Shown: positions 4,189 to 27,245 of the stretch, in pieces
Layout of the letters: each line of letters starts with the position of its first letter
How positions within the stretch are numbered: the stretch's first letter is position 1
Position numbers and translations under genes: made by a program
Notes under the pieces: generated by a model
The model's database searches: none
What the model was told of the DNA's origin: nothing
Seen by the model: the letters and a program-made list of their open reading frames with translations, nothing else
NCBI GenBank assembly: GCA_021324635.1
Contig: JAJPIS010000076.1
Location: 1-35,015 of the forward strand
Direction of reading: 5' to 3'
Length of the DNA: 35,015 nucleotides
Origin: Gemmatimonadota bacterium
GTDB lineage: Bacteria; Gemmatimonadota; Gemmatimonadetes; Gemmatimonadales; Gemmatimonadaceae

Positions 4189-4261
4189 TGGAGCTGAGGG
4201 GAGTCGAACCCCTGACCTCTGCAGTGCGATTGCAGCGCTCTCCCAACTGAGCTACAGCCCC
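4189..4261 (-). tRNA. tRNA-Ala (anticodon CGC)
   Basis: On the minus strand a 73-nt cloverleaf begins GGGGCTGTAGCTCAGTTGG and ends CAGCTCCA. The acceptor stem GGGGCTG/CAGCTCC has the G3-U70 wobble pair that marks alanine tRNAs. The anticodon stem is CTGCA/TGCAG with loop ATCGCAC, giving anticodon CGC, which reads GCG. The T arm AGGGGTTCGACTCCCCT is intact. The 3' CCA is not encoded, so it must be added after transcription. A good sigma-70 promoter lies upstream. Confidence 0.95.
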
Positions 4262-18160: not shown

Positions 18161-18817
18161 CTACTGAAAGGTCGGGAGGGAGAGCACGGCCAGCAACTGC
18201 CGGAGCACCCGCTCGGTCATGCCCCAGACGACATACTCGCCGTGGCGAAAGCTCCGCACCCGCCGGGCGACGCCGCGCACGTGGACGATCGACTCCGTGG
18301 AGCTCTCCGGCGCGACGAGCGTGGCGAGCGGGACCCAGAACGCGGCCGCGACCTCGTCGTTGAGGGTGAGCGCCACGTCGTGCCCCAGGATCGCGACAAA
18401 GGGCCGGACGAGGAGCGACATCCCGCTGCGCGGCTCGAGATCGTCGAGGGCGCCGAGGACCCTCCCGTGCCGAGCGAGGTCGATCCCGGTCTCCTCGCGC
18501 GTCTCGCGGATCGCCGTCTCCGCGAGCGTGGCGTCGCGCGGCTCCTGACGGCCGCCGGGGAGCGCGACGTGGCCGCTCCACGGATCATCCTCATGCTCAG
18601 CGCGCTTGATGAGCAGCAGCTCGGCCCCGCTCGCCGCACGCCGGAGCACGAGGGCGACGGCCGCCCGCGCGGTCGGCGCGTCGGGTGGGCCCGGGGTGTC
18701 TGCGGGGTCCGCGGAGTCGGCGGGTCGGCGGGCGCGCGCCCACCGGCCGAGGGCGTCCAGCACGGCGGGCCAGTTCCCGCCGCCGGCGGGCGCCGAGTCA
18801 GCCCTCGACGTCGCCAC
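18161..18817 (-). CDS. Nudix hydrolase, probable CoA pyrophosphatase
   Basis: 218-residue Nudix protein. The box is GGRQEPRDATLAETAIRE followed by TREETG (Arg104, Glu105, Glu108, Glu109), with the one-residue-longer spacing also seen in E. coli NudL. The preceding LLLIKRAEHEDDPWSGHVALP matches the CoA-pyrophosphatase signature region. It probably splits CoA into 3',5'-ADP and 4'-phosphopantetheine. The start is uncertain: the GTG at 18817 gives a 20-base overlap with the rhodanese gene and keeps a 50-residue disordered N-terminus; no ATG is close. Confidence 0.85.
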   Translation of the reverse strand: MATSRADSAPAGGGNWPAVLDALGRWARARRPADSADPADTPGPPDAPTARAAVALVLRRAASGAELLLIKRAEHEDDPWSGHVALPGGRQEPRDATLAETAIRETREETGIDLARHGRVLGALDDLEPRSGMSLLVRPFVAILGHDVALTLNDEVAAAFWVPLATLVAPESSTESIVHVRGVARRVRSFRHGEYVVWGMTERVLRQLLAVLSLPTFQ

Positions 18818-19160: not shown

Positions 19161-19432
19161 CAGCGCTCCCGCGTAATCGGGGCCGGCGTCGGTGCTGCTC
19201 CGGTGTCGCCGCCGATACCCGCCAGCGATCGCCTCGTGACGCAGCTCGTCCCTGAATGTTCGCCACGTGGCATGTGCATTGCCACTCTCCACGCCCGCTG
19301 CCCGGAGCGCGGCGGCGACACGCGTCGATCGCGTCGCACAGCACCGCCCGGCATCGCGCGGGCGCCCGGACCCCGGAGACGACGCCCCGGCGCCCCCGGG
19401 GCGCGCGCACCACACATGCGGAGGGTCGCACC

Positions 19433-20308
19433 ATGACAGAACGCGATCGCGACCAACAGACCGACCAACAGGCCGACGAACAGACCGACCAGCAGGGCGA
19501 CCAGCAGGGCGACCAGCAGGGCGACCAGCAGGGCGACGGGTACAAGGCGGACCCCGGCACCGGTGGCGGGCGTGGGAACGCCGGTCGTGACTCGCACGCG
19601 CACGAGTCGCGCGGGAATAGAGAGGGTGGGGAGGGTGGGGAGGGTGGCGAGGGGGGGACGAGCGACGCCGACGACGTCGGCGACGCCGGCCCGGGCCGCA
19701 CCGGCGCGGCGAGCGACGGCACCGATGTGGGGAGCGCGGCAGGCGGGGCCCCGCGCCAGCGACTCGGCGCGAGCGGAGCATCTCGCGGCCGGCGCGAGGG
19801 CCGCCGGAGTCCTGACCCGGGTGCCGATCGCGGTCCCGACGTCGGTCCCGACCAGATGACACACGCGGGGAGCGACTACGGCGGCTACGGCGCGTCGAGC
19901 GGATACGACGATCCTCGCCCCGAACGGTCGTCCGACCGCGCGCCGGACGACGGGGCGGACGAGGCGGCGGACGAGGCGACCGACGTGGGCGGCGCGAGTG
20001 ACGGCGACGCGGGCGACGATGCCGCGGCACGCCGCGCCGAGGCGATCGACCTGGCCGGCGGCCTCACGGGGACGGGACGCAGCGGCGACTACAACTACGC
20101 CGTCGACGAGCTCGACGACGAGCGCGAGGGGGACGCCCGCGGACCGATGGGGGCCATCCAGGCCAGTGATCCGAGCCAGGTCGGCACATCCGGACGCGCC
20201 GATGACATGAGCGGCACGCAGGGCACCAGCGGCTCGCAGGGGAACATCGGCGACACGGCGCCGTACGGCCCGGGCTCCGGCCGCGACGAGGGACGCATCT
20301 CGCCGTAG
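19433..20308 (+). CDS. Acidic intrinsically disordered repeat protein
   Basis: 291-residue protein that I do not recognise. It opens with seven tetrapeptide repeats (DQQT, DQQA, DEQT, then DQQG four times) encoded by 12-bp DNA repeats, then a GEG triplet repeat, and continues rich in Asp, Gly, Ala, Arg and Ser. I see no Cys, Trp or Phe and only one Lys; Asp plus Glu clearly exceed Arg plus Lys, so it is strongly acidic. There is no signal peptide or membrane helix. A good Shine-Dalgarno GGAGG precedes the ATG at 19433 by about 8 bases, and the frame is kept over repeats of different phase, which supports real translation. It could be a hydrophilin-like stress protein or a DNA mimic; both are speculative. 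It lies just upstream of the methyltransferase module on the same strand. Confidence 0.65.
   Translation: MTERDRDQQTDQQADEQTDQQGDQQGDQQGDQQGDGYKADPGTGGGRGNAGRDSHAHESRGNREGGEGGEGGEGGTSDADDVGDAGPGRTGAASDGTDVGSAAGGAPRQRLGASGASRGRREGRRSPDPGADRGPDVGPDQMTHAGSDYGGYGASSGYDDPRPERSSDRAPDDGADEAADEATDVGGASDGDAGDDAAARRAEAIDLAGGLTGTGRSGDYNYAVDELDDEREGDARGPMGAIQASDPSQVGTSGRADDMSGTQGTSGSQGNIGDTAPYGPGSGRDEGRISP
19451..19534. repeat. Seven 12-bp coding tandem repeats
   Basis: Seven adjacent 12-base units inside the acidic protein gene: GACCAACAGACC, GACCAACAGGCC, GACGAACAGACC, then four identical GACCAGCAGGGC. The identical last four suggest recent expansion; the unit is a multiple of three so copy-number change keeps the frame. 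Confidence 0.9.
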
Positions 20309-20419: not shown

Positions 20420-20528
20420 GTGTTGGCGGCACGGCCGGCGGTCCGGATGGCGCTGCCGACGGCGTGCCGATGGGCGTCGCGTCGAGCCGATGCGGGCCCC
20501 GATCCGGCGGGCGCGCATCCTCGGGGCG

Positions 20529-22877
20529 ATGCTCACCCTGCGCGCGGCGGCGGCGCTCCTTGCAGCGGACGGACTCGACGGCCTGGCCGCCCTCGCCGCG
20601 ATGTGCGGCTGTGGCGGGCCGCTCCTCCCGCTCGACGAGTCGATGCGCGGACGGCTCGGGCTCGACGAGCGGCCGGGCCCTCCGGGCGCGGCGGCGTATG
20701 TGGCGCGTGGGGCCGGGCCACTCCGTGCGCTCGTCCTCCGCGCGGATCCGGGGCCCACCGGCGTCTCGCTTCGCGAGCTCGTCGTCCGCGTCGCGGCGCG
20801 GCTCGCCCGGCAGACGCCGCACCTCGCATGGCTCTGCATCGCGGCCGCGCGCCGCCCTGCCCCGCGCCCCGCGCGCGAGCTGCTGCTGGCATCGTGGTGG
20901 CCTGACCGGTTGCCGCCGCGGCTCGCCGCCCTCGCCGTCGACCAGGATGCGGTCGTCGACAGTGACGCCGAGACGCTGTGTGGGCTCGCGACAGCGGGTG
21001 CGCTGGGCGATACGCTGACGCAGGCCCGGTGGCTCGAGGTCCTCGGCCGCGAGGCGCTGACACGTCGCTTCTATCGTGCCCTGCGCGGTGCGGTCGGCGA
21101 CCTGGCGGCGACCCTCCGCGTCCCACCCGGTGCCCGGCGGCCGACCGGCGATGCGCGGCAGGGGCTCGCCCTGTTGTACGCGTCCCGCCTGCTGTTCCTC
21201 GCATTTCTGGAGGCGAAAGGGTGGCTCGACGGCGATCGCGCCTTCCTCGCCCGCACGTTCGGGGAGTGTGCCGCGGGGGGCGGCGGGTATCACGCGCGGG
21301 TGCTTCGGCCGCTGTTCTTCGGCACGCTCAACACGCCGGTCCGGCGGCGGGCGGCGGCGGCCCGCCGCTTCGGGCGGCTGCCGTTCCTGAACGGCGGCCT
21401 GTTCGCGCCCACGCCGCTCGAGCGCCGCCTCCGGGACGCGGCGTTTGGGGACGACGCGCTGGGCGGGTTGCTCGGCGGTGTGCTCGGGCGCTTCCGGTTC
21501 ACGGCTCGTGAGGACCGGAGCACGTGGAGCGAGGCAGCGGTCGATCCCGAGATGCTGGGCAAGGCGTTCGAGGCGCTCATGTCCCCGGCCGAGCGGCACC
21601 GCACGGGCGCGTACTTCACGCCGCAGCACCTCGTCGAGCGCACGACGGAGGGGGCGCTCCGAGCGCTGCTGAGTGCCGGGGTGGGGGTCGGGGCGACGGA
21701 GGCGCTCCTTGCCGGCGAGCCCGTGGGCCGGACGGCGGCCCGGGAGGCGCGCGAGTACCTGGCGCGGGTCCGTGTGATCGACCCGGCCTGCGGGTCGGGC
21801 GCGTTCCTCGTCCACGTGCTGGACGTCGTGTCGGGGCTGCTGGGGCGGGTCGGCGACGCACGCCCCGCGTACGAGCGCCGCCGAGCCGTGCTCACGCGCT
21901 CGATCTTCGGCGTCGACGTCAATCCGGCGGCCGTGTGGCTCTGCGAGCTTCGGCTCTGGCTCGCCGTGGTCGTGGACTGCGACGACACGGCGCCGGAGCA
22001 GGTCGTGCCGCTTCCCAATCTCGACCGCAACATCCGCGTGGGCGATGCGCTCACGGGCGGTGGCTTCGAGGATGGCGCGGGAGGCGACAGCCTGGCGGCG
22101 CGGGTCGTCGCGGCCGGCGGGGGTCGGATCCGCGAGCTGCGCGAGCGGTACGTGCGCGCCGCGGGGGCGCGCAAGCGCGCGGCCGCCCGTCTGCTCGAGC
22201 GCGCGGAGCGGGCACGGGCCATCGGCGCCGCCGCACGCGAGCTGGCGATCGTCGAGCATGCCCGCCGCGGGGCGCTCGCCGACGCGCGTCGGCGAGATCT
22301 CTTCGGCGCGCGGACGCCGACGACGGGCGAGGCGCGGGCGCGGCGGCTCGCGCTCAGGGCACAGGCGCGGGCGTTGCGGGCGCGCCTGGCGGCGTTACGG
22401 GACGGCGCCGCCCTACCGTTCGCGTTCGCGGCGCACTTCGCCGATGCGCAGTCCGACGGCGGGTTCGACGCCGTCGTTGGGAACCCGCCGTGGGTCCGGC
22501 CGCACGCACTCCGGGTCGCGGATCGCGAGTGGCTGCACCGGGCGTTCGCGGTCTGCCGGGACGCGGCGTGGGCGCGCGGGGCGGCCGCCGGACGTGCCGG
22601 CGGGTTCGGGGCGCAGGTCGACCTTTCGGCGCTCTTCCTCGAGCGCGGTCTGTCGCTGGTCCGGCCTGGCGGGGTCGTGGCGCTCCTGCTGCCGGCCAAG
22701 CTCTGGCGCTGTCTGGCCGGCGGCGGCGCGCGGCGGCTCGTCATGCGGGAATCGGCCGTGCTCGAGATCGAGGATTGGTCGGCGAGTCGCTCGGCGTTCG
22801 ACGCCGCCGCGTACCCGTCGCTGCTCGTCGCGCGCCGCACGCGACCGCACGCGGCGCGCATCGCCGTCCCGTCGTGA
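20529..22877 (+). CDS. Eco57I-type N6-adenine DNA methyltransferase, catalytic part
   Basis: 782-residue protein (from the ATG at 20529; GTG 20343 and ATG 20490 are in-frame alternatives). Residues 1-170 are a family-typical N-terminal region without a visible PD-(D/E)xK motif. Then come the helical ALLYASRLLFLAFLEAKGWL segment, R358-TGAYFTP, SAM-binding motif I VIDPACGSGAFL (D418, G422, G424) and catalytic motif IV N652-PPW. The methyltransferase therefore looks active and should methylate adenine N6. It ends shortly after the last Rossmann-like block (VVALLLPAKLWRCL, VLEIEDWSAS), whereas full-length relatives continue into a target-recognition domain. That domain is the next gene, joined by a GTGA overlap. 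In BREX PglX and DISARM DrmMI both parts are one chain. Start choice is uncertain. Confidence 0.88.
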   Translation: MLTLRAAAALLAADGLDGLAALAAMCGCGGPLLPLDESMRGRLGLDERPGPPGAAAYVARGAGPLRALVLRADPGPTGVSLRELVVRVAARLARQTPHLAWLCIAAARRPAPRPARELLLASWWPDRLPPRLAALAVDQDAVVDSDAETLCGLATAGALGDTLTQARWLEVLGREALTRRFYRALRGAVGDLAATLRVPPGARRPTGDARQGLALLYASRLLFLAFLEAKGWLDGDRAFLARTFGECAAGGGGYHARVLRPLFFGTLNTPVRRRAAAARRFGRLPFLNGGLFAPTPLERRLRDAAFGDDALGGLLGGVLGRFRFTAREDRSTWSEAAVDPEMLGKAFEALMSPAERHRTGAYFTPQHLVERTTEGALRALLSAGVGVGATEALLAGEPVGRTAAREAREYLARVRVIDPACGSGAFLVHVLDVVSGLLGRVGDARPAYERRRAVLTRSIFGVDVNPAAVWLCELRLWLAVVVDCDDTAPEQVVPLPNLDRNIRVGDALTGGGFEDGAGGDSLAARVVAAGGGRIRELRERYVRAAGARKRAAARLLERAERARAIGAAARELAIVEHARRGALADARRRDLFGARTPTTGEARARRLALRAQARALRARLAALRDGAALPFAFAAHFADAQSDGGFDAVVGNPPWVRPHALRVADREWLHRAFAVCRDAAWARGAAAGRAGGFGAQVDLSALFLERGLSLVRPGGVVALLLPAKLWRCLAGGGARRLVMRESAVLEIEDWSASRSAFDAAAYPSLLVARRTRPHAARIAVPS

Positions 22878-24028
22878 CCGGCCCCGCGACCATCCCGCCG
22901 ATCGACGCGACGGAGGCCCGGGGATCGCGCGAGGCCAGTCGGGCGAGCGGCGCCGCCGAGGCGGCGGAGACGGCCGCAGTCGCGGGTGACGGGGCAGGAC
23001 CGACCGGCGTGATGGTCGCCGTGCATACGCGGGCGGGCGTGCACCGATGGCGGGGAGCGGCGGACGCGCTGCCGTTCGATCGGTCACCGGGCAGTCCGTG
23101 GCTGCTCGTGCCGCCGGCCGTGCGGGCGGGGTTCGACGCCGTGTGCGAGGCCGGGACTGCACTGGCCGACACGCCGTTTGGCGCGCCGACCCTCGGCGTC
23201 AAGTGCGGCTGCAACGCCGCCTTCATCGTGCGCCGTCGTGACCCCGAGTCCGAGGAATCCACCGTCTGGATCACCACCGCCCGCGGATGCGCGCCGCCGC
23301 GGAGCGGCCGGATCGAGCGGGCGATGCTTCGCCCCCTGGTGCGGGGCGAGACGGTCGCGCTGGGCGCGGCGGCGCGAGCCGACGGCGGAGGTGGTGTGGC
23401 AGGTCCGGTCGCGGACACCGGGACTGCGGGACTGGCGGCGGGTGGTGAGTGGATCATCTGGACGGCGCGCGAGGTCGACGGGACGCAGGAGCCGATCGAC
23501 GAGCTGCCGCCGCACGCGGCACGGTGGTTCGCGCCCTGGCGCCATCGCCTCGCCGCCCGCGCCGATACGCGGGGCCGCGCGCCCTGGTGGGCGCTCTTCC
23601 GCACCGAGGGCGCATCCTCGGCGACGCCGCGCCTCGTCTGGGCGGACCTCGCCCGGCGGCCGCGCGCGATCGTGCTCGCGGCGGGGGACCCGACGGTGCC
23701 GCTCAACAGTTGCTACGTGCTCCGCACGAGCGACCTGCGCGACGCCGAGGGGCTGCGGGGATTGCTGACGAGCCCTCTGGCGGCCGCCTGGTTGGCCGTC
23801 ATTGCGGAGCCGGCGCGCGGCCTGCACCGCCGGTATCTCGGGTGGACCGTCGGGCTCCTGCCGGTCCCGCACGATTGGGAGCGCGCCCGCGCACTGCTGG
23901 CGCAGGTCGCGCAGGCCAGGACGGCTGGCGCACCGCTCGGGCCGGTGCGGGAAGCGGCCATCGCGGCGCGGGCGTATCGGCTGCCACTCGCGCGGGTGCG
24001 GGCACTGCTCGCGTGGACGACCTGCTGA
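22874..24028 (+). CDS. Detached target-recognition/C-terminal part of the methyltransferase
   Basis: 384-residue protein. After a ~45-residue Ala/Gly/Glu-rich linker comes a conserved block typical of Eco57I-class C-termini: FGAPTLGVKCGCNAAFIVR, then LRPLVRGETVALG, EWIIWTAREVDG, PRLVWADLARRPRAIVLAAG and NSCYVLRTSDLRD. In related enzymes this region supplies DNA target recognition. It lacks any SAM motif and so should work only with the 20529-22877 protein. The GTG at 22874 overlaps the upstream stop as GTGA. The segment could also be read as the product of a frame shift between the two genes; the low-complexity linker at the break is where an insertion or deletion would do least harm. It overlaps the translocase gene by 16 bases. 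Confidence 0.8.
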   Translation: MTGPATIPPIDATEARGSREASRASGAAEAAETAAVAGDGAGPTGVMVAVHTRAGVHRWRGAADALPFDRSPGSPWLLVPPAVRAGFDAVCEAGTALADTPFGAPTLGVKCGCNAAFIVRRRDPESEESTVWITTARGCAPPRSGRIERAMLRPLVRGETVALGAAARADGGGGVAGPVADTGTAGLAAGGEWIIWTAREVDGTQEPIDELPPHAARWFAPWRHRLAARADTRGRAPWWALFRTEGASSATPRLVWADLARRPRAIVLAAGDPTVPLNSCYVLRTSDLRDAEGLRGLLTSPLAAAWLAVIAEPARGLHRRYLGWTVGLLPVPHDWERARALLAQVAQARTAGAPLGPVREAAIAARAYRLPLARVRALLAWTTC

Positions 24029-26493
24029 GCGCGCGGGCGGTGCCGCTCGACGCCGTGCGCGGGGCGATCGCCCGATGCTGGCTGGGCGGATCACTCGGGG
24101 CGGAGCACGTCGAGGCTGGCCGCGACGCGCCAGGCGAGTCCGGGCCGTGCGCGGCCCACCTCGGATCGATCGTTCTCAGACCACATCAGGTGGCGGCCGT
24201 CCGCGAGCTCCGTGCGATTCTGCGCGCGGCGGGAGGGGCGGTACTGGCCGATGATGTCGGCACCGGGAAGACCTACGTCGCCCTCGCGCTCGCCCGCGAC
24301 GCGCGCGCGCCGGCCGTGGTCGCGCCGGCGGGGCTGCGCGCGATGTGGGACGATGCGGCGGCCCGGGCCGGCGTGTCGCTGGCGCTGCTCACGACCGAGT
24401 CGCTGAGCCGTGGCTCGGCGCGGCCGCATCTCCCCGAGCCGTGCGATCTGCTCGTGGTCGACGAGGCGCATCACTTCCGTAACGCACGCACGGCGCGCTA
24501 CCGCGCGCTCATGCGCCTGTCGGCCCAGACGCCGGTGCTGCTCGTCACCGCCACGCCCGTCCACAACCGGACCGCCGATCTCGCGACGCTCCTCGGGCTC
24601 TTCCTCGGCGGGCGCGCGTGGACGCTGACCGATGCCGATCGGTCCCGTTACGTCGTGCGGCGACGGGTGGCCGAGCTGCGGCCCGCTGGCGGCGGTCCCT
24701 CGGGCGACGCGCGGGGGACCGCCGCTCACTGGCCGGCGGTCGACGGTCCGCACCTCCTTCGGAGCGCCGACGACGCGGACACGGCCCAGGCGCTGGTGGA
24801 GCTGCCGCCGGCGCTGCCGGCGCGCGGGGCGGGTGAGGCGGGCGCACTGGCCGTGATCGGGCTCATGCGCCAGTGGGCGTCGAGCGCCGGTGCGCTCCGG
24901 GCAGCCCTCGAGCGCCGTGCTGCGCGGGCTGCGGCGCTCGCCGCGGCGCTCGAGTCGGGTCGGCACCCGTCGGACCGGGAGCTCCGTGCCTGGTGCGTGG
25001 GGGAGGGCGCCCAGCAGCTCGCCTTCCCGGAGCTGCTCGTGCCGGCGGCGCCGGTCGCCGAGGGCCTCCTGGACGCGCTCCGAGCCCACGCCGAGGGGGT
25101 ACGGCGCCTCGCGAGCCGGCTGGCCCGGGCGCCGGATCCGGATATCGCGCGCGCCGACCGGCTCCGTGCGATCGTTGCGGCACACGCGGGCACGCCGGTC
25201 GTCGCGTTCAGTGGTTACGAGGACACGGTCCGGGCCCTCTATCGGTTGCTCGTCCGCGACGTGCGCGTCTGCGCACTCACGGCCGGCGGCGGGACGATCG
25301 TCGGCGGCCGACTCTCGCGCGCCGCGGTGACGGCGCAATTGGCCCGCGATCCGCGGCGGCCCGGCAGTGGCTCGGCCGCCGAGCGCATCGACCTCCTCCT
25401 CACGACCGATCTGCTGTCGGAAGGCGTGAACCTCCACGCCGCCGGCGTGGTCGTCCATCTCGACCTCCCCTGGACTCCCGCGCGACTCGAGCAGCGCGTG
25501 GGGCGTGTCGCGCGGATGGGCAACCCGTATCCCTCCGTCACGGTGTACGCCTTCGCGCCGCCGGCGTCCTCGGAAGTGGTCCTCCAGCTCGAGCGCCGAC
25601 TGCATGCGAAAGTGGCCGCGGCGGCGCGCGCGGTCGGCATGGCGGGGTCGATCGTGCCCTCGCTGGTCGCGGGCCTCGGCGACGGTGTGCCCGGACGGGT
25701 ATCGCTCGCGGCCGGGCTACCCGAGTGCACGGCAACGGCCCGGGACGTCGTGCGGGCGTGGGGACGACGCTGGGCCTCGCGCCTCGCGCGGGGCGGCGCG
25801 CAGGGTCCCTGGGGGGCGGGGAGGCCGGCCGCGGACCGTGTGTGCGCGAACGGAGGGCCGGTCGAGCCCGGCGGCGGTGACGAGAGCGACGCCGGTGACC
25901 GGGCCGTGGTCTACGCCGCCGTGCGGGGCACGCGACCGGGGTTCCTGGCGGCCGGGATGCTGGATGGACGGCCGGTGCTGATCGGATCGACCGGCGGGTC
26001 GGCCAGCGATGCGCCGGACATCGTCGCCGCGGCGGTGCAGGCAGCGGACAGCGCGGGTGGCGCACCAGCTGCGCCGCACCCGGCGGCGTTGCGGGGGGCG
26101 GCCGATGCGCTCCAGCGCTGGTGGGCGGCGCGGCGCGCCACCGACACCGTGGGCCTGACCGATCTGGCGGCGGTCGGGGTCCGCCATCGGGTGTTGCGGC
26201 GCATCGCGAGCGTGGTTCGGCGCACGCCGGCGCATGCCCGACCGCGGATCCTGGCGCTCGCGAGCCGGGCGCGCCGAGCGGCCACCGCGCCGTTCGGGGC
26301 CGGGGCGGAGGGGGTGCTGCGCGAGCTCGCCGACGCGCAACTCCCCGAGGTCGCCTGGCTGCGGGCCGTGGGCGCCTTCGGCGACGCGTTCGCCGCGCGG
26401 CACGCCGCATCGCTCGGCCACGATCGGGAATCGGAGCTCCGGATCGGCGCCGTGCTGTTGATCGTCCAGGAGGACGACCACCGAGCGGGATGA
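24013..26493 (+). CDS. SNF2-family DNA translocase/helicase
   Basis: 826-residue superfamily-2 ATPase. Motif I is D80-DVGTGKT (DEMGLGKT in most SNF2 proteins), motif II D150-EAHHFRN, motif III V178-TATPVHN, motif V LLLTTDLLSEGVNLHAAG and motif VI Q494-RVGRVARMG with both arginines. It should hydrolyse ATP and translocate on double-stranded DNA. Residues 200-400 are a long helical insertion and residues 520-826 a C-terminal region I cannot assign; it contains no nuclease or phospholipase-D motif. DrmD of class 1 DISARM and RapA-like proteins have the same core. Start GTG 24013 lies inside the preceding gene, giving tight translational coupling of all three genes. Confidence 0.88.
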   Translation: MDDLLSARAVPLDAVRGAIARCWLGGSLGAEHVEAGRDAPGESGPCAAHLGSIVLRPHQVAAVRELRAILRAAGGAVLADDVGTGKTYVALALARDARAPAVVAPAGLRAMWDDAAARAGVSLALLTTESLSRGSARPHLPEPCDLLVVDEAHHFRNARTARYRALMRLSAQTPVLLVTATPVHNRTADLATLLGLFLGGRAWTLTDADRSRYVVRRRVAELRPAGGGPSGDARGTAAHWPAVDGPHLLRSADDADTAQALVELPPALPARGAGEAGALAVIGLMRQWASSAGALRAALERRAARAAALAAALESGRHPSDRELRAWCVGEGAQQLAFPELLVPAAPVAEGLLDALRAHAEGVRRLASRLARAPDPDIARADRLRAIVAAHAGTPVVAFSGYEDTVRALYRLLVRDVRVCALTAGGGTIVGGRLSRAAVTAQLARDPRRPGSGSAAERIDLLLTTDLLSEGVNLHAAGVVVHLDLPWTPARLEQRVGRVARMGNPYPSVTVYAFAPPASSEVVLQLERRLHAKVAAAARAVGMAGSIVPSLVAGLGDGVPGRVSLAAGLPECTATARDVVRAWGRRWASRLARGGAQGPWGAGRPAADRVCANGGPVEPGGGDESDAGDRAVVYAAVRGTRPGFLAAGMLDGRPVLIGSTGGSASDAPDIVAAAVQAADSAGGAPAAPHPAALRGAADALQRWWAARRATDTVGLTDLAAVGVRHRVLRRIASVVRRTPAHARPRILALASRARRAATAPFGAGAEGVLRELADAQLPEVAWLRAVGAFGDAFAARHAASLGHDRESELRIGAVLLIVQEDDHRAG

Positions 26494-26567: not shown

Positions 26568-27245
26568 ATGCCAGACGCCCTGCTGCGCGCGGTGCTCTTC
26601 GACCTCGACGGCACACTCGTCGACACCCTCGAGCTGCTCCTCAGCTCGATGCGCCACGCCTTCGACGGGTGGAGCGGGGCCAGACCCACGACCGCCGAGT
26701 GGACGGCCGGGATCGGGACCCCGCTCGCGACACAGTTCGGCGTGTACGCGCCCGATCCGGCCGGTCTGCGCCACCTGACGGAGCGGTATCGGGCGTTCCA
26801 GCGCGCGCATCACGATCGCTTCACGCGCTGCTTCCCCGACGCCGCCGCGACCGTCCGGCGGCTGCACGAGCGTGGTCACCCGCTCGCCGTCGTCACCTCC
26901 AAGGCGAACGACATCGCGGCCCGAACGGTGGCGCATGTGGGCCTGGCCGAGTACCTCCCGGTGATCGTCGGCGTCGAGTCGACGCGCCGCCACAAGCCCG
27001 ATCCCGAGCCCGTCCGATACGCTCTGGAGCAGCTCGGTGTGCCGGCGAGCCGGGCAGTGTTCGTCGGCGACTCCCCACACGATATCGCCGCCGGGAAAGC
27101 GGCGGGGGTCTGCACGATCGCGGCGCTCTGGGGCATCTGCGGACGAGCCGCGCTCGATGCGGCCCGGCCCGACCATGTGCTGGAGCACATCGCCGAGCTG
27201 CCGGCGCTCCTGGATGCGCTGCCCCAGCCGGCGGCCGGCGCCTGA
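26568..27245 (+). CDS. HAD-superfamily phosphatase (phosphoglycolate phosphatase/PpaX-like)
   Basis: 225-residue HAD hydrolase with motif I F-D12-L-D14-GTLVDT, motif II in VVTSKAND, the lysine of motif III in TRRHKPDPEP and motif IV FVGDSPHDIAAGKAAG. The helical cap between motifs I and II is of the C1 type found in Gph and PpaX. It likely removes phosphate from a small metabolite such as 2-phosphoglycolate or from pyrophosphate; the substrate is not fixed by sequence. TAGCTT lies nine bases before the ATG at 26568, again a near-leaderless promoter. Confidence 0.9.
   Translation: MPDALLRAVLFDLDGTLVDTLELLLSSMRHAFDGWSGARPTTAEWTAGIGTPLATQFGVYAPDPAGLRHLTERYRAFQRAHHDRFTRCFPDAAATVRRLHERGHPLAVVTSKANDIAARTVAHVGLAEYLPVIVGVESTRRHKPDPEPVRYALEQLGVPASRAVFVGDSPHDIAAGKAAGVCTIAALWGICGRAALDAARPDHVLEHIAELPALLDALPQPAAGA

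Follow-up and report, generated by a model that had tools for sequence, protein, structure and literature searches.

The window, meaning the whole 35,015-nucleotide stretch of DNA analysed here, carries a gene pair that appears to be what is left of a restriction-type module after loss of the nuclease, namely a DNA-marking methyltransferase that is fixed in the core and works with an SNF2 translocase; to this reading we assign a probability of roughly 0.6. The stretch comes from a 4.09-Mb, 97%-complete genome of Gemmatimonadaceae, a family of soil and freshwater bacteria. In it, a methyltransferase, a separate target-recognition domain (TRD) and an SNF2-family protein are encoded by three genes that form a co-translated unit without a recognisable nuclease. 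A search of the open-access literature found no paper describing this methyltransferase/SNF2 pair.

Anatomy and predicted enzymes of the gene trio

Three open reading frames (ORFs) on the plus strand make up the unit, and their order, strand and overlaps are those given in the original prediction. The methyltransferase gene (20529-22877, 782 aa) starts with ATG at 20529, although translation could also begin at a GTG or ATG in the same frame before it, for example at 20490. It is followed by the TRD gene (22874-24028, 384 aa, GTG at 22874) and the SNF2 gene (24013-26493, 826 aa, GTG at 24013). The first two genes share a 4-base start/stop overlap, GTGA (22874-22877, plus strand), which is kept as NTGA in 3/3 species of the genus. 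The TRD and SNF2 genes overlap by 16 bases (24013-24028, plus strand), with GTG at -15 in the same 3/3 species, and an ATG or GTG at -15 makes this overlap possible also in loci L063, L067 and L080 of other genera. Because NTGA is common to the three species and the 16-base overlap is possible there and in these other loci, the overlaps are not due to chance, which bears out the earlier claim that they mark a unit.

In the other genera examined, methyltransferase and TRD are encoded by one ORF of about 1000-1150 aa, and the middle protein of the window aligns with the C-terminal third of these single-ORF homologues. All three species of the window's genus have the split, so an assembly error was ruled out as its source. 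The middle protein is thus a detached TRD, since a single ORF covers both proteins elsewhere and the genus is split throughout. The protein itself had no match in searches of Pfam, PADLOC, NCBIfam or PDB sequences. Its motif LGVKCG (residues 107-112; 23192-23209, plus strand) retains L, G, V, K and the second G in at least 95% of homologues.

The methyltransferase matched Eco57I (PF07669, E=6.9e-16, 59 bits) and N6_Mtase (PF02384) in Pfam, and is predicted to be an N6-adenine DNA methyltransferase of the Eco57I/PglX/type IIG-like kind that has no TRD of its own. The SAM-binding motif I, DPACGSGAFL (residues 418-427; 21780-21809, plus strand), is invariant or nearly so among 21 homologues from three families, and catalytic motif IV, NPPW (residues 652-655; 22482-22493, plus strand), which reads GNPPW with the preceding residue, is invariant in 21/21 aligned homologues; motif X is also conserved among them. 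When the core methyltransferases were considered together, 43/43 contained NPP[WFYH] and motif I. The AF2 model (pLDDT 88) gave fold matches in the PDB to BrxX/PglX, MmeI, BsaXI and CamA, the last being a core orphan methyltransferase.

For the SNF2 protein, a predicted dsDNA translocase without an HKD nuclease domain, the Pfam matches above cut-offs were Helicase_C, SNF2-rel_dom and ResIII. Across 20 homologues, both G and the K of Walker A, GTGKT (residues 83-87; 24259-24273, plus strand), and all of Walker B, DEAH (residues 150-153; 24460-24471, plus strand), are invariant. In helicase motif VI, QRVGR (residues 494-498; 25492-25506, plus strand), the Q and both R are invariant and the G is present in 95%. 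SNF2 motifs I, II, III, V and VI, together with the TRD motifs, are retained by every one, or almost every one, of 20-21 homologues belonging to three families. The AF2 model (pLDDT 74, with the C-terminal third modelled poorly) matched the folds of Chd1 and ISWI, which are chromatin remodellers, and of RapA and ZorD in the PDB. All catalytic motifs are kept and the trio still looks like enzymes, their activity being predicted from sequence.

Distribution, chromosomal setting and descent

The original prediction had suggested an accessory, undescribed defence system. We found instead that the pair is near-universal, syntenic and vertically inherited in Gemmatimonadales, and its status as a vertical, nuclease-less core pair is well supported. 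TRD homologues were present in 86 and SNF2 homologues in 89 of 99 related genomes, the two matches lying adjacent on one contig in nearly all relatives; among good-quality relatives, 77 of 86 have a homologue in the TRD search. The control Cas1, a real but patchy defence gene, was found in 16/99 of the same genomes. The window's genome itself has cas1 (G000:C6:61698-62540), which is absent from two other searched species of the genus. With a methyltransferase profile, 123 of 140 genomes of Gemmatimonadaceae (our reading of family code f1) were positive, as were 78 genomes of two sister families (f2 and f3) and 20 genomes from further families of the same class, among whose matches the weakest are of the distant accessory type; family counts were tallied by hand from the table. 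No plasmid homologue covering 80% of the SNF2 query was found by tblastn, and viral contigs contained distant methyltransferases only, the best being 33% identical (L200, IMGVR_UViG_3300003315_000001, classed as viral).

Absence of the pair was associated with small genomes. The Gemmatimonadaceae genomes that gave no match are smaller than the others (medians of 3.0 and 3.8 Mb, p=3e-5), some of the counted absences being fragmented assemblies; the copy in G254 is truncated by a contig end (L191). At 2.4 Mb or below, the pair is absent in 7 genomes of the family and present in 1. In four small genomes (L187-L190) the flanks are retained and closed up and the pair is gone, and in the 2.1-Mb genome G197 a methyltransferase remnant of about 200 aa (L196:1512-2114) lies between HAD and DUF4097-type genes, the SNF2 gene having disappeared.

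The setting of the pair was compared in 21 neighbourhoods, whose genes were called by a home-made program based on codon usage and then grouped by BLAST; part of the genes were Pfam-scanned and the other names were judged from sequence. Most of the 21, from the three families f1-f3, share a common setting, with individual genes sometimes missing: upstream lie a NUDIX-position gene and rhodanese, universal stress protein, LD-carboxypeptidase-like and glycosyltransferase-like genes, and downstream HAD, ECF sigma, anti-sigma, DUF4097 and Bax1-I genes. The HAD phosphatase gene (26568-27245, plus strand), a conserved neighbour outside the module, adjoins or lies near the pair in f1, f2, f3 and f9 and is also found at empty sites; in family f9 the pair is thus kept with HAD nearby. 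The upstream NUDIX-position gene (18161-18763, minus strand), also outside the module and named from reading its sequence with no profile behind the name, occurs in 15 of the 21 first neighbourhoods and in 12 of 13 genomes without a methyltransferase match. As the original prediction had stated, no gene for DrmA, DrmB, DrmC, PglZ or BrxC is recognisable nearby: homology clustering, together with selected scans against Pfam, revealed none in the window or in 20 neighbourhoods. Directly upstream of the module lies an ORF of low complexity (19256-20308), in which D, G, Q and S abound and the unit QQGD recurs; its part at 19370-20308 had no match in Pfam. A tRNA-Ala (CGC) gene is located at 4189-4261 on the minus strand of the window.

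In a 51-row methyltransferase tree, each family formed one clade (SH-aLRT 100 for f1, f3, f4 and f9, and 86 for f2), which fits vertical inheritance within families. The branching order between families was not supported, and a few sequences from Myxococcota and Acidobacteriota metagenome-assembled genomes (MAGs) fall among them; for orthology between families the evidence is therefore shared synteny, the tree giving no proof of it. We also compared the identity of the TRD with that of the catalytic domain. The TRD/catalytic ratio was 0.98 +/- 0.06 (minimum 0.84) over 277 Gemmatimonadaceae pairs at 38-60% catalytic identity, whereas in nuclease-bearing relatives it was 0.74 +/- 0.25 (minimum 0.13) over 407 pairs at 38% or more, including pairs with 81% catalytic against 23% TRD identity; the pairs are non-independent and the window protein served to define the columns, yet the two groups differ strongly. 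The alignments indicate that the TRD is swapped among nuclease-bearing relatives and evolves as slowly as the catalytic domain in Gemmatimonadaceae. Such constancy of the TRD would be expected of a fixed motif and not of an arms race.

Nuclease-bearing relatives and known systems

Distant homologues (L107-L160, together with L182 and L184-L186 from other Gemmatimonadota families) consist of an SNF2 protein with an N-terminal HKD (PLD) nuclease and an Eco57I-type methyltransferase, and are patchily spread over many phyla. One of these helicases matched the PADLOC candidate C3a139 'HKD+Snf2' with 194 bits over most of its length, and the helicase-nuclease of such systems is distantly similar to NCBIfam NF042964. 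An HxK about 150 residues upstream of Walker A was found in 40/40 distant helicases against 0/52 core helicases, the window's own among those lacking it, which agrees with the earlier statement that the unit has no recognisable nuclease; the count covers helicases with a recognisable Walker A, and L141, the lone exception in the accessory range, is a core sequence and was counted as core. The two types have in common the same two-protein pairing, encoded together, with a homologous SNF2 core and a homologous methyltransferase that is about 22-30% identical to the sequence heading the alignment. They differ in that the HKD-SNF2 systems carry the N-terminal HKD domain, are mostly helicase-first, are scattered across phyla and have swapped TRDs, whereas the core pair has no nuclease, is methyltransferase-first, core and vertical, and has a fixed TRD. 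The HKD-SNF2 and methyltransferase systems are likely the ancestral type of the core pair.

Traces of the nuclease persist in two families. The HKD domain is missing in f1-f3, and in f9 a degenerate remnant was detected (HHalign probability 68%). In f4, a detached gene of about 160-225 aa without a Pfam match lies between the methyltransferase and SNF2 genes (L178:5066-5623, L179:5778-6308, L183:5385-6062, and in L180 and L181), and in its product, which can be aligned to the HKD domain (98.6% probability), other residues stand in place of the catalytic HxK. On this alignment, the detached degenerate gene is possibly an intermediate in nuclease loss. Because HKD is present in all the scattered distant relatives and dead remnants occur in f4 and f9, the change was probably a loss here and not a gain elsewhere. 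The suggestion that a nuclease is encoded elsewhere proved unlikely for the PLD type, since the only PLDc_2 matches in the window's genome are a polyphosphate kinase and a cardiolipin-synthase-like protein.

Three relatives have further genes at their loci. In a cyanobacterial relative, an OLD/AriA/GajA-like ATPase gene (L107:9362-11191) lies between the methyltransferase and HKD-SNF2 genes. The gene after the HKD-SNF2 and methyltransferase pair of a Chitinophagaceae MAG (L142:9008-10921) weakly matches LmuB and MAD3, and in an Acidobacteriota MAG a 794-aa ORF (L100:3-2384), which shares 4 bases with the start of a related methyltransferase gene, had no PADLOC match at 1e-8.

In profile searches, the trio did not emerge as a curated member of DISARM, BREX or LlaGI. 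The best family scores of the SNF2 protein were with DrmD and DpdE, far below curated cut-offs (DrmD: NF038317, 108.5 bits against 610, and NF038318, 78 against 950; DpdE: 94 against 500), and the methyltransferase scored 48.9 bits against 400 with the PglX equivalog NF033451 and far below cut-off with other PglX models. Class 1 DISARM (DrmMI-DrmD) likewise pairs an Eco57I/PglX-type methyltransferase with an SNF2 helicase; however, DrmA, DrmB and DrmC were not recognised nearby and the gene order is opposite, with the methyltransferase before the helicase. MZB (PF09369), the mark of YprA-type helicases, had no match in the whole genome, the control being positive in 8/14 genomes, and no drmA or drmB was recognised beside close homologues, so that the observation which the original prediction had named as refuting it was not made. 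DISARM membership was rejected on the absence of these genes, the DrmD scores and the lack of MZB, and the earlier idea of a reduced DISARM gives way to HKD-SNF2 and methyltransferase systems as the nearest nuclease-bearing kin. Type ISP (LlaGI) enzymes are single polypeptides with nuclease, translocase, methyltransferase and TRD. Type ISP and type IIG/IIL (MmeI) enzymes share the methyltransferase-TRD architecture, and type ISP also couples a translocase, but the window's proteins are separate chains, as in relatives, and show no recognisable nuclease signature. ARMADA (PMC12458937) comprises ArmA (a BrxHII-like SNF2 protein), ArmB (a PglX-like methyltransferase) and ArmC (YprA); the SNF2 and PglX-like components are shared, and membership failed on the genome-wide lack of an MZB match and hence of a YprA-type helicase. 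The Hma or DUF499-centred BREX-related systems also have an N6-methyltransferase and an SNF2 helicase, with an N-terminal HKD nuclease in type 2 helicases (PMC12839542), whereas the window's genome has neither this nuclease nor, genome-wide, a DUF499 ATPase (PF04465), so membership was rejected here too.

The core orphan methyltransferases Dam, CcrM and CamA resemble the window's enzyme in being near-universal in a taxon, in having no cognate nuclease and a conserved specificity domain, and in a fold related to CamA. The pair differs in being translationally coupled to an SNF2 translocase and in spanning several families of an order; to our knowledge, core orphan methyltransferases described so far act alone. 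The highly conserved methyltransferases of Oliveira and Fang, which PMC8407109 cites, also count as core orphans.

Function of the pair and its implications

On the reading that we favour, the ancestor would have been an HKD-nuclease-SNF2 protein with an Eco57I-type N6-adenine methyltransferase; the nuclease would have been lost in the Gemmatimonadota lineage, and the pair would have become a fixture of the core chromosome. Methyltransferase and TRD, which are co-translated as two chains in the window's genus and form one chain elsewhere, would write N6-methyladenine at one lineage-wide motif. The SNF2 protein would move along dsDNA using ATP and help the methyltransferase to gain access to its sites or to read them, for instance through removal of bound proteins, and the outcome would be a permanent genome-wide mark for gene or chromosome regulation. 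We infer that the proteins form a complex, that translocation and methylation take place, the latter at such a motif, and that the role is one of housekeeping and not of immunity. The stronger statement, that a vertically inherited core N6-adenine methyltransferase obligately coupled to a remodeller-like SNF2 translocase arose by nuclease loss from an antiviral system and sets an order-wide fixed mark, and is thus a new kind of bacterial epigenetic machine, is to us an even bet. Several points weigh against a core mark: Dam and CamA, as core orphan methyltransferases, need no translocase, retention of SNF2 is equally expected under nuclease-free immunity, and the N-terminal alpha/beta domain of the methyltransferase could be a cryptic nuclease fold.

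Nuclease-free immunity that became fixed in the core is the main rival, and we consider it rather unlikely. The methyltransferase would mark self, and the SNF2 motor would block or remodel unmethylated incoming DNA in a BREX- or ARMADA-like manner, perhaps handing it to host nucleases. Anti-phage defence by ARMADA indeed requires both the SNF2 protein and the PglX-like methyltransferase (PMC12458937), the nearest nuclease-bearing kin are RM-like, and the pair is dispensable in some genomes. An arms-race system would nevertheless hardly be expected to be prevalent in the core, to stay at one locus, to descend vertically and to leave its TRD undiversified, and the genome contains no YprA/MZB, DUF499 or HKD nuclease partner.

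That the pair still restricts DNA, by way of a nuclease that escaped recognition in the N-terminal domain of the methyltransferase or is encoded in trans, is very improbable. In type IIG/IIL restriction-modification enzymes the methyltransferase chain includes an active PD-(D/E)XK nuclease, and type IIG enzymes have their nuclease at this N-terminal position; the domain is alpha/beta in the AF2 model and the methyltransferase has a PADLOC type IIG match (132 bits). Yet no nuclease-like D/E/K array is conserved there in the core or accessory homologues aligned, the domain is the fastest-evolving part of the protein (39% vs 55% identity), and the genome has no PLD-type nuclease. We give least credence to a gapped DISARM or BREX, in which the pair would be drmMI-drmD or pglX-brxHII and its partner genes would have been lost or would lie at another place, as the resemblance to DrmD and DpdE stays far under cut-offs, the core order is methyltransferase then helicase, the genome has no YprA/MZB helicase and the neighbourhoods across three families hold no conserved cluster of such genes.

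At this locus a restriction-type defence module looks to have turned, clearly and in steps, into a core function of the chromosome; the nuclease domain can still be seen in each of its states, intact, detached and dead, and gone. It also cautions that a nuclease-less, defence-like gene pair need not be a defence island. A core mark predicts one shared 6mA motif across Gemmatimonadaceae; we found no Gemmatimonas methylome data in the open-access literature. If the methylation prediction holds, the few core methyltransferases known in bacteria would gain a case with an ATP-driven SNF2 partner, and the pair would parallel the eukaryotic link of DNA methylation with SNF2 remodellers such as DDM1.
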